From the NCBI GenBank assembly GCA_004213555.1, contig SHAP01000001.1, positions 124,001 to 188,000 of the forward strand: a DNA stretch of 64,000 nucleotides, read 5' to 3'. Positions 20,704 through 44,490 of the stretch are shown piece after piece. The DNA comes from Phycisphaeraceae bacterium (lineage in GTDB: Bacteria > Planctomycetota > Phycisphaerae > Phycisphaerales > SM1A02). The translations under genes and the position numbers were made by a program. The number at the start of each line of letters is the position of its first letter. The first letter of the stretch is position 1. Below the pieces are notes generated by a model. That model ran no database searches and was not told the origin of the DNA. It saw nothing but the letters and a program-made list of their open reading frames with translations.

Positions 20704-21306
20704 TTAGGAACGAACTGGGCCTCGAGAACCGCTGAGTTGGCGTTCAATTTCTTTCCGGTGGTCCGCGGGCAGTTTTTTCCAGTCAGTCGGAGACAAAGAT
20801 TTCAATTCTCGCAGCGTTCGGTCGCGCACTTCACGCCATCTGCCAAAGAGAGATTCCAATTCATGGCGTGGAAGTTGATCCATCGGATCTTGCAAGCCGG
20901 TTTGGGCCACGGCCCAGGCCATAAGGCCAGTTGAATCATTCCCAAATCGATACAAGCTGGCACAGGCCCGAATGCGCCCTTCAACGGGATGAAAAGGATC
21001 GGTCACGTCCTCTGGAAGTCGAGTCATGACGTCAATAAGAAGCTTCTGACGTGCACCTGCACTCAGAGCGACTTCTTCGGAACGAAAGAACGCCGCGGCT
21101 GGGGGTTCCCAACTCTCTGAATCAGGGCGATCATCGGCCGAGGCTGAAGCCAGGGGGGCGACTTTGGGGTCCATGTGTTTCAATCCGGCGAATTCGAATC
21201 GAACGGCCAGTTTTCCACCTGGTTCAAGCCGAACGATGGTTCCCACGCCCCATTCGGGTCGAGCGGTGTTGCGGATTTGATCGCCAAAGGCATAGTTGTG
21301 TGGCAT
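20704..21306 (-). CDS. DUF3553-domain protein
   Basis: The N-terminal 50 residues form a small beta-barrel-like module (FGDQIRNTARPEWGVGTIVRL, KLAVRFEFAGLKHM) that matches the DUF3553 pattern of PEWGxGxV...VxFxxAG. The rest of the 200 residues is helical, with ESLFGRWREVRDRTLRELKSL near the end. The function of DUF3553 is not established; similar modules occur at the ends of UvrD-type helicases. ATG 21306 is used; a GTG at 21324 is also in frame. A 495-base gap separates it from the divergent AAA+ gene. Confidence 0.75.
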   Translation of the reverse strand: MPHNYAFGDQIRNTARPEWGVGTIVRLEPGGKLAVRFEFAGLKHMDPKVAPLASASADDRPDSESWEPPAAAFFRSEEVALSAGARQKLLIDVMTRLPEDVTDPFHPVEGRIRACASLYRFGNDSTGLMAWAVAQTGLQDPMDQLPRHELESLFGRWREVRDRTLRELKSLSPTDWKKLPADHRKEIERQLSGSRGPVRS

Positions 21307-21801
21307 AAAGGTCTCTAAAGACACGGTTTGGCCGCCAAACAGACAAAATTGGCTGCATTATCGGGCATGAATTTCATGAAAGAACTGTGACCGGCTTTAT
21401 CCACAGGCGACACGTTCGTATCTGGAGAACCTTAGTCGATTTCTCCCCTCGAAATCCTTGATGGGGGGCCAAAAAGCCAAACTTTGGTGACTTTCTGTCA
21501 GGTTCACGCAGTATTAATAAGGCGACACTTGCATCCGGAAAACTAGGGGCTACATTCGACATCGAGAAGAGACCTGGGCCAAGTTGGCCCGACATCCGCG
21601 GCGCGGAAGGAGAGAGAGCCCCCACAATCAACTTGGCATGCGATGCGGTATGCCTTCTTGCCATGAGAGACACCCCAAAAGCACTCGGGAGTGGGCAAGA
21701 GAGACGGGAGCACTCTTTCATGATTCGTTGCTTGTCCAATCGGGATCGAGATCCCGGCTGTGGTTCCGTCCGCACCGAGCGGAGGGAAGAGAGAGAAAGA
21801 A
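21307..21801 (+). promoter_or_regulatory. Long upstream region of the AAA+ activator gene with palindromes
   Basis: This 495-base stretch has no convincing gene. It contains a TATTAATA (21511-21518) that could be a -10 element, a GCGACA at 21522-21527 resembling the TGTCGCA boxes found further on, a perfect palindrome GGGCCAA-G-TTGGCCC at 21576-21590, and another, CGGGATC-GA-GATCCCG, at 21741-21756. The last 60 bases are strongly purine-rich and lead into the start codon (GAGAGAGAAAG). Inference: a long regulated 5' leader. No tRNA or known riboswitch pattern was recognised. Confidence 0.4.
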
Positions 21802-22767
21802 ATGGCCAACAGCCCCCCCGCCCCTGGCTTTGGTAAATCAAGATCACCCACCGACGAATCCAGAGATTCAATCCTGGCCCCTTTGTGGTTGCAGGAGGCA
21901 GAACGTGCTGCGAAGCGCCATTGCACCATTTTGATCACTGGTGAAACTGGGGTGGGCAAGGGGCATTTGGCCAATTTCATCCACCAGAACAGCCCACGAG
22001 CAAATCAACCTTTTGTTCCTATCAACTGTGGAGCCATTCCAGAAACACTCATGGATTCCCAGCTCTTTGGTCACGCCAAGGGGGCCTTCAGCGATGCACG
22101 TCGTGAACATCCCGGCATGATTCGAGCCGCCGCAGGCGGAACAATTTTCCTTGATGAAATTGGTGAACTGACTCCTTCGGCACAAATTCGCATGCTGCGT
22201 CTGTTGCAAGAATTCGAGGTGCAACCTGTGGGCTACTCAGAGCCCGTAGAAGTTGACGTGAGGGTCTTGAGCGCGACCAATCGGAGTCTTGAAGACGCGG
22301 TCGCTTCGCGTTCATTCCGCGAAGACCTGTTGTATCGACTCGATGTCATCCGGGTGGAAGTGCCACCTCTGCGGCAACGGAGAAACGAGATCGCTGATCT
22401 CATCCTTCAGTTCAATGAAGAATTCTGCCGGATTCACCGCACCCCTACCCTTGATTTTCATCCCGAAGCCGTCGAATGCTTGATCAGGCATCCGTGGCCA
22501 GGAAACATTCGACAGTTAAGGACCGTCATTGAACGACTTCATGTGCTCTGTGAATCTCCGCACGTGACACCAAAAACACTGCAGGATGTTTCAAAGTTAG
22601 ATCTCATCGAATCTAGGGGTGTCCCAAGCACCGCCCGATTCGACTTGTCTGCACAACGGAAGCAAATGATTGAGGTTCACTTGGAGCAAGGTGGCACGGT
22701 CGAATCCTTTGCCAAAGGTATTGGGGTTCATCGCAGCACGGTTTACCGCTGGCTCAAGCCGACGTAA
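21802..22767 (+). CDS. Sigma-54-type AAA+ activator without receiver domain, GAFSDA variant
   Basis: A 321-residue bacterial enhancer-binding protein. The AAA+ core has Walker A GETGVGKG (47-54), GAFSDA (94-99) where sigma-54 activators have GAFTGA, Walker B GGTIFLDEIG (112-121), RxLSATNR, and the sensor/arginine stretch FREDLLYRLDVIRVEVPPLRQR. The C-terminus ends in a Fis-type helix-turn-helix (VESFAKGIGVHRSTVYRWLK). There is no N-terminal sensory domain, only about 25 disordered residues. Such proteins use ATP to open sigma-54 promoters. The T-to-S, G-to-D change in the loop is unusual but related GAFTDA forms are known to me. A candidate -24/-12 promoter lies just downstream. Confidence 0.88.
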   Translation: MANSPPAPGFGKSRSPTDESRDSILAPLWLQEAERAAKRHCTILITGETGVGKGHLANFIHQNSPRANQPFVPINCGAIPETLMDSQLFGHAKGAFSDARREHPGMIRAAAGGTIFLDEIGELTPSAQIRMLRLLQEFEVQPVGYSEPVEVDVRVLSATNRSLEDAVASRSFREDLLYRLDVIRVEVPPLRQRRNEIADLILQFNEEFCRIHRTPTLDFHPEAVECLIRHPWPGNIRQLRTVIERLHVLCESPHVTPKTLQDVSKLDLIESRGVPSTARFDLSAQRKQMIEVHLEQGGTVESFAKGIGVHRSTVYRWLKPT

Positions 22768-22803
22768 CAGCTGATCAAAGAGTTCACAAAAATGACCCAT
22801 TGA

Positions 22804-22838
22804 CCTGATCAGTAATGATCGGGTTTTTTCTTTTTTTC
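22804..22838 (+). terminator. Rho-independent terminator after the AAA+ activator gene
   Basis: CCTGATCA (22804-22811), loop GTAA, and TGATCGGG (22816-22823) form an 8-bp stem with one G-T pair, followed by six T, a C and seven more T. It lies 37 bases after the stop codon. It should separate the activator transcript from the downstream gene, so the latter needs its own promoter. Confidence 0.88.
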
Positions 22839-22865
22839 CTCTTTCTTATCGAACAATCTGTGCGT

Positions 22866-22959
22866 GTTGTCGCAGCTTTGCGAAAGGTTGTCGCACAACT
22901 CGATTTGGCGTTCAGAACCATGTCGCGTTTGTGCGAATCGAGAATTCGCCATGCGACAT
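22866..22959 (+). promoter_or_regulatory. Cluster of TGTCGCA boxes, candidate activator sites
   Basis: GTTGTCGCA occurs at 22866-22874 and again at 22887-22895, exactly 21 bases (two helix turns) apart. ATGTCGC at 22920-22926 and GCGACAT at 22953-22959 form an inverted pair enclosing a second inverted pair GCGAAT/ATTCGC (22933-22938 and 22944-22949). The sites lie about 100-195 bases upstream of the expected start of the -24/-12 promoter, the usual distance for enhancer-binding sites. Binding by the neighbouring AAA+ protein is inferred from position only. Confidence 0.5.
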
Positions 22960-23034
22960 CCCACCAGAAGAGGAACCCAACAGAGCCGCGTTGAGCGTCT
23001 GATCGGCTTTTTCCACGTGTCTCGATGAGAACAC

Positions 23035-23051
23035 TTGGCATGGTTGTTGCA
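23035..23051 (+). promoter_or_regulatory. Candidate sigma-54 (-24/-12) promoter
   Basis: The sequence TTGGCATGGTTGTTGCA matches the sigma-54 consensus TTGGCACG-N4-TTGCA at all positions but one. The GG (23037-23038) and GC (23049-23050) are separated by the required 10 bases. Transcription would start near 23062. It follows the activator terminator and the TGTCGCA cluster and points into the next gene. Confidence 0.65.
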
Positions 23052-23061
23052 GTTGTCTTGT

Positions 23062-23592
23062 GTGTCTGATTGTGATTCCCAATTCGTGGTCCTCGCTGGT
23101 GCCGCGGAAGCCATTCGCCAAATCGGCGGTGAACTTCGCCAGTCCGGCATTGCCCCCAAGGCAACGGCCACCCATCTCACTGCATTGAGACAGGGACTCA
23201 TCCTTCAGCCACCGAGCTTCGTGGTCATCTGCGTCGCTCTGTCAGAGAAGAGTACGAAGCGTCACGACCATGACCTGAAAATCTTCCTTGACGACATGCG
23301 GTCTCTTCCTGGAACCGTCCGAAGCATTGGCGTGACACCAAATTCGGCTCCGGGACTGACCGGCCAGTTGGCTTCGCTTGGATTTGATCTCTACCTCAGT
23401 GATCCACACCAGGCGGCATCGGCCATCGAGTCTATCCGTTTGGAAACCTCGAAAACTGGCGCTTCTCGATTCGACGCCCTTTGTGAAATCGAACTTGAAG
23501 ACAACAACTGGCCCGTGCGTTTGGGAACCCCACAAGCAAAGGCCATAGAAGGAACACCCGGAGTTGAACGTTTCAACTTCGACCACGACTGA
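23062..23592 (+). CDS. Pseudo-receiver-like small protein, unknown function
   Basis: The frame opens at TTG 23035, but that codon is inside the -24 element, so GTG 23062 (or GTG 23086) is more likely. The roughly 176 residues alternate strands and helices in the order of a CheY-like receiver: QFVVLAG, a helix, ATHLTAL, a helix, SFVVICVAL, a helix, VRSIGVTPN with a conserved-looking Thr, then FDLYLSDP and a last helix. The acidic pair after strand 1, the phospho-Asp of strand 3 and the Lys of strand 5 are all absent, so it should not be phosphorylated. This is my reading of pattern, not a search result. A 50-residue tail follows. Confidence 0.55.
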   Translation: MSDCDSQFVVLAGAAEAIRQIGGELRQSGIAPKATATHLTALRQGLILQPPSFVVICVALSEKSTKRHDHDLKIFLDDMRSLPGTVRSIGVTPNSAPGLTGQLASLGFDLYLSDPHQAASAIESIRLETSKTGASRFDALCEIELEDNNWPVRLGTPQAKAIEGTPGVERFNFDHD

Positions 23593-23865
23593 AGAGCGAG
23601 AAGTCCCGAGAAGGGGGCGAAAAGAGGAGAACACATCCCCGGAGTCATCAGGAGAGTCAAGAGATCAACATCATTGATTTGCAACCAATGCTTTCAAGAG
23701 AGCAATTGCGAAAGATCAGACCACCGAAGAGCGAGCTTGGGAGAGCGGTCTGGAAAGAGGTGAAGAGATCGAGACCGGACGTGTGAAGACTGAGAATGAG
23801 GAGATGCAGGGACCCCGGCTGCACATTCTCTTTCCTTGTCTGAACCAGTGGAAACACTGCCTTCA
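23593..23865. other. Purine-rich non-coding stretch between convergent genes
   Basis: After the stop at 23592 there are about 270 bases without a believable gene. The plus strand is rich in GA (many GAGAG and GAAGAG runs), unlike neighbouring coding DNA. No clear hairpin plus T-run was seen. It leads directly into the 71-bp tandem repeat and may be part of one non-coding transcript with it. Confidence 0.4.
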
Positions 23866-24037
23866 GACCTTGGGCCCAGATCCTGGGTCGACAACTCTCT
23901 CTCTTCTCTCCGCATCAGTTCTCTTGGACTGATGCGGACCTTGGGCCCAGATCCTGGGTCGACAACTCTCTCTCTTCTCTCCGCATCAGTTCTCTTGGAC
24001 TGATGCGGACCTTGGGCCCAGATCTTGGGTCGACACC
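23866..24037. repeat. 71-bp tandem repeat (about 2.4 copies) carrying a perfect hairpin
   Basis: Units begin at 23866, 23937 and 24008. The first two appear identical; the third is cut off after about 30 bases and has a C-to-T change (GATCTTGGG instead of GATCCTGGG). Each full unit contains TTGGGCCCA, a pyrimidine tract (CTCTCTCTTCTCTC) and a hairpin, CCGCATCAGT, loop TCTCTTGG, ACTGATGCGG, at 23910-23937 and 23981-24008. The repeat lies between two convergent genes. No T-run follows the hairpins on either strand, so they are not standard terminators. Confidence 0.9.
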
Positions 24038-43740: not shown

Positions 43741-43905
43741 CACCTCGGTCCTCCGTCCTATAAAAGAGACATTTCTCAAAATCAACTCCGCCACATCGGC
43801 AGGACTTTTTGGCATGCATTAAGTTTGCGTGTTCATTGACATAAGTCCCTTGTGGTAATCGTCTTAAGTCTATATTTGATCGGGAGAGAGAAGAAAGGCA
43901 TTTCG

Positions 43906-44490
43906 ATGCGACTTCTTCTTGCCACCACTTTGTGCTTCTTTTCGATGGCCGACGCTGACCTGCTGATCGTCAACGATGCTCAGGTTCATGGACAACTCTC
44001 GCAGAACAACGGGATCTTGTTTTCAGACTGGAGTTTGTTGGATGGCTTCGATCCCATCGATGTCTACACCAACGAAGATGAACTTTTCGGATGGTCACTG
44101 ACCGCAAACAACGGAGTGCAGGGCCTTGATGGGATCGGTGCAACCTCACTTGAAGCTGGCGAAGCTCTGACGATCTCGTTTCTTGGCGAGGACGTCTGCT
44201 CGGTTGGAGCGATGTTCGGACTCAACGACGAATCCGTGGAAGCGGTCAGCGGGACGCTGCAACTGACGTTGGATGATGGCTCCAGTTTTTTCACCACCAT
44301 CCAGCAAGATGGGGGATTCGGCGGATTCATCAGCTTAAACCAAACCATTCAAAGCCTGACGTTCCAACCTTTTGGTGAATCCGATCACAATGCCATTGTC
44401 TCGTCCATTCGAGTCGGTGTTGTGCCGAGTCCTGGCGTGGCCTGCGTCTTGCTGATTGGGCTTCACGCCCGTCGCAGTAGACTCAGCTGA
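43906..44490 (+). CDS. Secreted PEP-CTERM-like protein 1
   Basis: ATG 43906 has AAAGG 8 bases upstream and gives a signal peptide (MRLLLATTLCFFSMADA). The 194-residue beta-rich protein has LEAGEALTISFLGEDVCSVGAMFGL and LQLTLDDGSSFFTTIQQDGG, then FGGFISLN. The C-terminus VVPSPGVACVLLIGLHARRSRLS has the VPSP motif, hydrophobic helix and Arg cluster of PEP-CTERM-like sorting tails, so it is probably processed and displayed at the cell surface. It is a relative of the minus-strand gene at 46030. The lost DALLG-type helix is weakly hydrophobic for the class. Confidence 0.75.
   Translation: MRLLLATTLCFFSMADADLLIVNDAQVHGQLSQNNGILFSDWSLLDGFDPIDVYTNEDELFGWSLTANNGVQGLDGIGATSLEAGEALTISFLGEDVCSVGAMFGLNDESVEAVSGTLQLTLDDGSSFFTTIQQDGGFGGFISLNQTIQSLTFQPFGESDHNAIVSSIRVGVVPSPGVACVLLIGLHARRSRLS

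Follow-up and report, generated by a model that had tools for sequence, protein, structure and literature searches.

The window considered here, i.e., the 64-kb stretch G000:C1:124001-188000 of a 2.0-Mb Phycisphaerae assembly (genome G000) from a marine planctomycete, carries a cassette composed, from 5' to 3', of a gene for a sigma-54 enhancer-binding protein (EBP) lacking a sensory domain, TGTCGCA boxes, a -24/-12 promoter, a small open reading frame (ORF) encoding a receiver-like protein and a repeat of ~71 nucleotides (nt). Sequence comparison suggests, with a probability of roughly three in four, that this locus is an autoregulated module combining sigma-54 control with small RNAs (sRNAs). 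The strongest single argument is that the unpaired strand of the repeat units (the seed) and the EBP leader, more than 1 kb apart, have changed together in one genus, which points to direct pairing between them.

In the proposed circuit, the sensorless EBP would bind the TGTCGCA/TGCGACA boxes and, with RpoN, fire the promoter at 23036-23051. The transcript would begin no more than a few nt from the start codon of the small ORF, the receiver-like protein being thus produced from a leaderless or nearly leaderless mRNA, and its 3' region would form a row of identical RNA units, each with CUCUCUCUCUUCUCU left unpaired between a first hairpin and a second one of 13 bp, with the last hairpin acting as terminator in many genera. 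Once transcribed and processed, as the array presumably is, these strands rich in C and U (CU strands) would pair with purine-rich ribosome-binding sites and block initiation, repression being the presumed direction of regulation. The EBP mRNA would be the first target, hence a negative feedback, and a subset of the mRNAs encoding exosortase-sorted (PEP-CTERM) surface proteins would be further targets, so that an active EBP would operate a cell-surface switch. The features concerned are as follows (window positions):

21603..21618, plus strand: GCGGAAGGAGAGAGAG, second purine site in the EBP 5' region, kept in four congeners (G000-G003)
21779..21795, plus strand: GCGGAGGGAAGAGAGAG, EBP ribosome-binding site, antisense to the CU stretch of the array over 18 contiguous pairs counting G-U
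21802..22767, plus strand: sigma-54 EBP, 321 aa, AAA+ domain and C-terminal helix-turn-helix (HTH), no sensory domain
about 22805..22835, plus strand: hairpin and T-run resembling an intrinsic terminator, 3' of the EBP gene, read from the sequence
22868..22958, no strand assigned: four enhancer-like boxes (TGTCGCA at 22868 and 22889, TGTCGCG at 22921, TGCGACA at 22952)
23036..23051, plus strand: sigma-54 promoter TGGCATGGTTGTTGCA, GG-N10-GC, predicted start site at 23062
23062..23592, plus strand: small ORF of 176 aa opening with GTG at the predicted +1, with a receiver-like fold by prediction
23593..23865, plus strand: non-coding spacer rich in purines that separates the small ORF from the array and has blocks kept in G000, G001 and G003
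23866..24035, plus strand: tandem RNA array, 71-nt period, two full units and a partial third
23897..23911, plus strand: CU stretch (seed) of unit 1
23909..23938, plus strand: 13-bp hairpin H1 of unit 1, covarying stem
23968..23982, plus strand: CU stretch (seed) of unit 2
23980..24009, plus strand: 13-bp hairpin H1 of unit 2

The tandem array and its match to the activator leader

The repeat, with 2.4 copies and 98% matches, is the sole tandem array found in the window. The units consist of a short hairpin, usually GACAA or a similar sequence, the invariant CU-rich single strand and the 13-bp hairpin in fixed register. Over 37 distinct units, 8 of the 13 stem pairs display compensatory changes, 99% of the cells are paired, and the covariation score reaches 0.454 vs 0.238 after shuffling and at most 0.10 after sliding, i.e., the conserved structure with covariation expected of a tandem array of structured sRNAs. 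In most genera other than that of the window, a U-run resembling a terminator follows the last hairpin. The preliminary description of this DNA, made from the letters of the window, had recognised the 71-bp hairpin repeat, which stands, but had overlooked its antisense match to the EBP ribosome-binding site.

Respective to distribution, CTCTCTCTTCTCTCCGC occurs in 18 of the 181 genomes of the family, mostly in 2-4 tandem copies, with zero control matches. Across the whole of GTDB (257 Gb), the tandem pattern was found at 13 loci, 12 of them in Phycisphaerae/Planctomycetota and the thirteenth a simple CT repeat, and diverged arrays in genus g56 and in G015 were recovered by covariance model. 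A class-wide covariance-model search outside the family gave weak matches only (G040, G052, and G284), which were not counted; also set aside were a match on a viral contig (simple CT repeat, no hairpin array), one in Alistipes (simple repeat) and a lone CU match at G026:C235 in which the hairpin is missing. No relevant Rfam family, alpha-r14 included, was matched by eight array loci (E<=1), and no account of the array was found in the open-access literature. Since the array contigs of the congeners of the window's genus (G001, G002, and G003, whose records include Phycisphaerae bacterium MED835 and NAT18) break off within the repeat, array lengths in short-read assemblies are uncertain and represent lower bounds.

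Pairing was evaluated as a simple duplex energy between the CU strand and positions -35 to +6 of the first ATG of each gene, mRNA structure being ignored. With -29.4 kcal/mol, the EBP site of the window is the best among 41 window genes. At -19 kcal/mol or better, a cut-off set after the values had been viewed, 9 of 105 cassette-locus genes are retained, all encoding EBPs (seven cassette EBPs and two paralogues). In the 18 array genomes, about 18 antisense sites lie outside the arrays when up to one mismatch is tolerated, and 11 of these are EBP leaders; some antisense-like sites (L100, L103, and L104) lie within long open frames and are probably due to chance.

The co-change is observed in one genus, g56, whose seed carries UUUUGCUCC and whose EBP leader carries GGAGCAA; as found in G105, G106, and G107, the two sequences run CUCUCUCUCUUUUGCUCC and GGAGCAAGAGAGAG, respectively. 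The g56 leader forms 18 contiguous pairs (G-U counted) with its own seed vs 11-16 with the standard one, and the leaders of nearly all other genera favour the standard seed, with ties in G033 and G011.

The sigma-54 cassette and its receiver-like protein

The order of the cassette is kept in the window's genus and in about ten other genera of one Phycisphaerae family, with the gene of the small protein and that of the EBP paired in the three congeners as well as in further genera. Every part named in the preliminary description was found in the sequence, and its view of a self-contained sigma-54 module gains support from the gene pair, the boxes and the promoter position across genera, the detection of RpoN and the receiver-like small protein. 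The EBP qualifies as a sigma-54 enhancer-binding protein by its matches to Sigma54_activat (E=1.7e-60) and AAA_lid_14 (3.8e-17), with weak HTH matches at the C-terminus, and an N-terminal sensory domain was looked for by domain search and not found. Of the terminator-like hairpin behind the gene, gatcgggttttttt is partially retained in congeners.

Over 15 homologous loci, 30 TGTCGCA/TGCGACA boxes are counted in the 300 nt past the EBP stop vs 1.0 expected, which bears out the box cluster described for the window. In seven genomes, a box also precedes the beginning of the EBP match by 376-471 nt, which suggests that the EBP is autoregulated. The promoter TGGCATGGTTGTTGCA, near-consensus as first described, scores 17.7 vs a shuffled maximum of 13.1 and is conserved in relatives, the best promoter-like match lying 227-406 nt past the EBP stop at 14 loci. 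At all 14, the predicted sigma-54 start site and the start codon of the small ORF are separated by 0, 3, 5, or 6 nt, and the corresponding mRNA should therefore be leaderless; with no space for a Shine-Dalgarno sequence, its translation should escape the block exerted by the array. Hfq was not detected in 13 genomes by a search that was positive in five control genomes.

The small protein has no Pfam or NCBIfam family, a Pfam receiver match included. An AlphaFold2 model built from nine sequences presents a beta-alpha-beta-alpha order, with a core scoring about 80 in the predicted local distance difference test (pLDDT) and a tail that is disordered, and conforms with moderate confidence to the (beta-alpha)5 receiver fold. 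Receivers and TadZ/CpaE pseudo-receivers occupy the top Foldseek ranks for this model, and VIA-align gives Z values of 10-11.7 to receivers, which are equalled by PurE, cobalamin-binding and other flavodoxin-like domains. Residues needed for phosphorylation are lacking, namely the conserved acidic pair of strand 1, the phospho-Asp and the Lys after strand 5, in keeping with the receiver without phosphorylation residues initially recognised; Cys57 in strand 3 is invariant. As a description of the predicted model, the label "receiver-like" is fair.

Candidate targets among exosortase-sorted proteins

Outside EBP genes, the arrangement GAGAAGAGAGAG-N2-14-ATG was found in 8 of 18 array genomes vs 12 of 163 others (Fisher p=1.2e-4), a conservative test since the array-bearing G106 was counted as array-free. 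Most of these sites in array genomes stand before PEP-CTERM proteins ending in VPAPG...RRRR. PEP-CTERM genes, defined as PF07589 matches, were compared between array genomes (G000, G101, G033, and G022) and array-free ones (G012, G116, and G018). Sites at -19 kcal/mol or better precede 14/50 of these genes in the former vs 1/39 in the latter (p=0.0013, for related genes that are not fully independent), and the same cut-off retains none of 96 non-EBP cassette-locus genes (p=8e-8 relative to 14/50). Generic pairing energies with the anti-Shine-Dalgarno sequence are equal between the two PEP-CTERM sets (p=0.86). The strong sites are distributed as 3/10 in G000, 6/9 in G101, and 5/20 in G033; the targets would be a subset of the PEP-CTERM genes and not the whole class. 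One PEP-CTERM gene with a site 4 nt before its ATG is common to G000, G001, and G002.

Antisense sites also occur elsewhere. The sequence GGAGGGAAGAGAGAG stands directly past the flagellin stop codon, by the terminator, in G000 (G000:C3:52035) and congeners (L093 1020-1085, L094, and L099), and in two predicted folds from the three congeners this site is in a hairpin loop. A similar site lies 3' of a fatty-acid-transporter-like gene in G101 (L111). A conserved hairpin, GGGCGAG-(AGAAGAGAGAGAAC)-CTCGCCC, has the antisense site in its loop in three congeners (L092 1755 on the minus strand, L095, and L097), and in G000 and G001 it is located about 200 nt upstream of the PEP-CTERM target site. Both the flagellin 3' sites and these loop sites could be sponges.

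Weighing of the alternatives and related systems

Several observations count against the autoregulated sigma-54/sRNA module. Regarding the array itself, the last unit lacks a T-run in the window's genus, where, by prediction, the spacer moreover engages the CU strands of its own transcript (unpaired probability of 0.85, falling to 0.2 with spacer), so that release of the array by processing may be needed. At the DNA level, the exact box is missing from the g56 loci, and the -12 element is GT and not GC in about half of the loci, where the score is weak or within chance; as these loci score weakly by themselves, the fixed distance from promoter to start codon is the better argument. Around the arrays of G015, G031, G032, and G113, the examined stretch contains no EBP, and G022, which has a good array, shows neither an antisense site near its EBP leader nor a strong site before any of its 11 PEP-CTERM genes. 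Finally, the purine-rich sites look like Shine-Dalgarno sequences, ranking all PEP-CTERM genes reveals no significant difference (p=0.27), and both the late choice of the -19 kcal/mol cut-off and the relatedness of the PEP-CTERM genes reduce the weight of the counts.

Among other explanations, control at the protein level comes first. The small protein is hypothesised to be a pseudo-receiver that docks on the EBP, in place of the missing sensory domain as already imagined in the preliminary description, and it might provide the signal input, with the RNA array secondary. The conserved gene pair and the receiver-like fold argue for this; that several arrays are found without nearby EBP and small ORF argues against it, and primacy of the protein-level control appears doubtful, albeit far from implausible. 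Both this control and the RNA circuit could be true.

It is unlikely that the polarity is reversed, i.e., that the purine-rich leaders and loops of 3' untranslated regions (UTRs) act as regulators or sponges and buffer the array, or that pairing activates translation. Such a scheme would accommodate the purine sites of the flagellin 3' UTR by the terminator in three congeners, as well as a purine spacer able to pair with the array of its own transcript, but most sites are spaced from the start codon as a ribosome-binding site would be, a position in which pairing should block initiation.

Protein sponges such as RsmY/Z are usually made of tandem identical unpaired motifs between hairpins. A comparable function for the array, whose CU strands are predicted to be mostly unpaired and would titrate a protein that binds pyrimidines, be it ribosomal protein S1 or some unknown chaperone, the likeness to purine sites being a by-product, is quite unlikely; it predicts neither the complement of the seed at the EBP leader in most genera nor the joint change of leader and seed in g56. 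As for a repeat acting as DNA (protein-binding iterons or recombination site) or simply drifting, with no RNA role, the mutability of CT-rich repeats and the congener assemblies breaking within the array speak for it, but the compensatory changes in 8 of 13 stem pairs, the terminator-like last units, the constant orientation behind a sigma-54 operon and the restriction to one lineage make it very improbable.

The sigma-54/sRNA module has counterparts in other bacteria. In the LuxO-Qrr system of Vibrio, a sigma-54 EBP controls multiple near-identical sRNAs, which repress the EBP mRNA by base-pairing and have further targets too, i.e., the same negative feedback loop between EBP and sRNA as proposed for the cassette, except that LuxO bears a phosphorylatable receiver and the cassette EBP does not (PMC3262071). 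The cassette differs further by its units in tandem in one 3' region, the absence of detected Hfq, and another seed and other targets. In the CcaF1-CcsR1-4/CIN1 arrangement of Alphaproteobacteria, a small-protein gene is similarly followed by several homologous sRNAs in one transcript with a 3' terminator, CcaF1 being a 71-aa DUF1127 protein behind an RpoH promoter (PMC8625941; PMC10253847), whereas the protein here is receiver-like and behind a sigma-54 promoter. NfeR1 of the alpha-r14 family silences the EBP operon ntrBC at the translation initiation region independently of Hfq and shares with the array repeated hairpins, an invariant unpaired anti-Shine-Dalgarno seed and variable stems, but its seed is CCUCCUCCC and not CUCUCUCUCUUCUCU, and NtrC represses the sRNA, whereas the EBP here is presumed to be an activator (PMC10746234). 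In the PrsK/PrsR system of Proteobacteria, a sigma-54 EBP is likewise tied to PEP-CTERM/exosortase surface proteins, with the receiver-bearing PrsR acting via sigma-54 sites upstream of PEP-CTERM genes (PMC1569441), whereas the link suggested here by antisense matches would be post-transcriptional. The cassette is analogous to LuxO-Qrr, CcsR, and alpha-r14 and a member of none, because (i) no DUF1127 match is present in 13 homologues of the small protein, (ii) Rfam is not matched, and (iii) the EBP stays below the cut-offs for LuxO (NF041946; 203 vs 800 bits, no receiver) and PrsR (TIGR02915; 240.5 vs 502.6 bits, the match beginning only at position 154, with no receiver).

To our knowledge, little is known on small RNAs in Planctomycetota. 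The full proposition, which falls a little short of even odds, is that of an undescribed riboregulatory module in this phylum, with no detectable Hfq, where one sigma-54 transcript would supply both a leaderless receiver-like protein and tandem anti-ribosome-binding-site RNAs capping the very EBP that activates them and a share of the exosortase-sorted surface proteome, with the module's own protein exempted by its leaderless start and with seed and targets co-evolving between genera. This would constitute a computationally supported Planctomycetota RNA family for which targets can be named, together with a logic of transcription and a natural co-variation of seed and target, and would reproduce a LuxO-Qrr-like feedback design in an unrelated phylum. 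Sigma-54 control would thereby be tied post-transcriptionally to exosortase-sorted surface proteins, where Proteobacteria use promoter sites; the conserved leaderless sigma-54 transcript predicted here is a testable oddity in its own right.

Some further observations concern the surroundings of the cassette and related sites. A second, convergent EBP paralogue lies 5-11 kb off the cassette in three genera (G006, G025, and G033; L044 11595-12593, L043 1239-2270, and L042 about 1976-2827), where it adjoins and precedes a 5-oxoprolinase-like gene. The leader of this paralogue is likewise antisense to the CU strand in G033 and G006, and in these two, the ones checked, a small ORF or array of its own is absent. 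In the array-free genus g19 (G085, G021, G091, and G092; L159 and L161-L163), a GAGAGAGAAGAGAGAGTTTGT motif is conserved with no evident long ORF after it. Within the window, a secreted-looking ORF at 43839-44487 has a purine-rich ribosome-binding site, GGGAGAGAGAAGAAAGG, giving the second-best CU duplex of the window genes (-15.7 kcal/mol). Upstream of the EBP, a DUF3553-like gene is located at 20704-21324 on the minus strand, and since DUF3553-like ORFs are also found beyond the EBP in G006 and G108, synteny reaches past the cassette. A glutamate-dehydrogenase-like gene adjoins the array in G033 (L044 4644-6092) and G025 (L042 11086-12753), a possible link to nitrogen.

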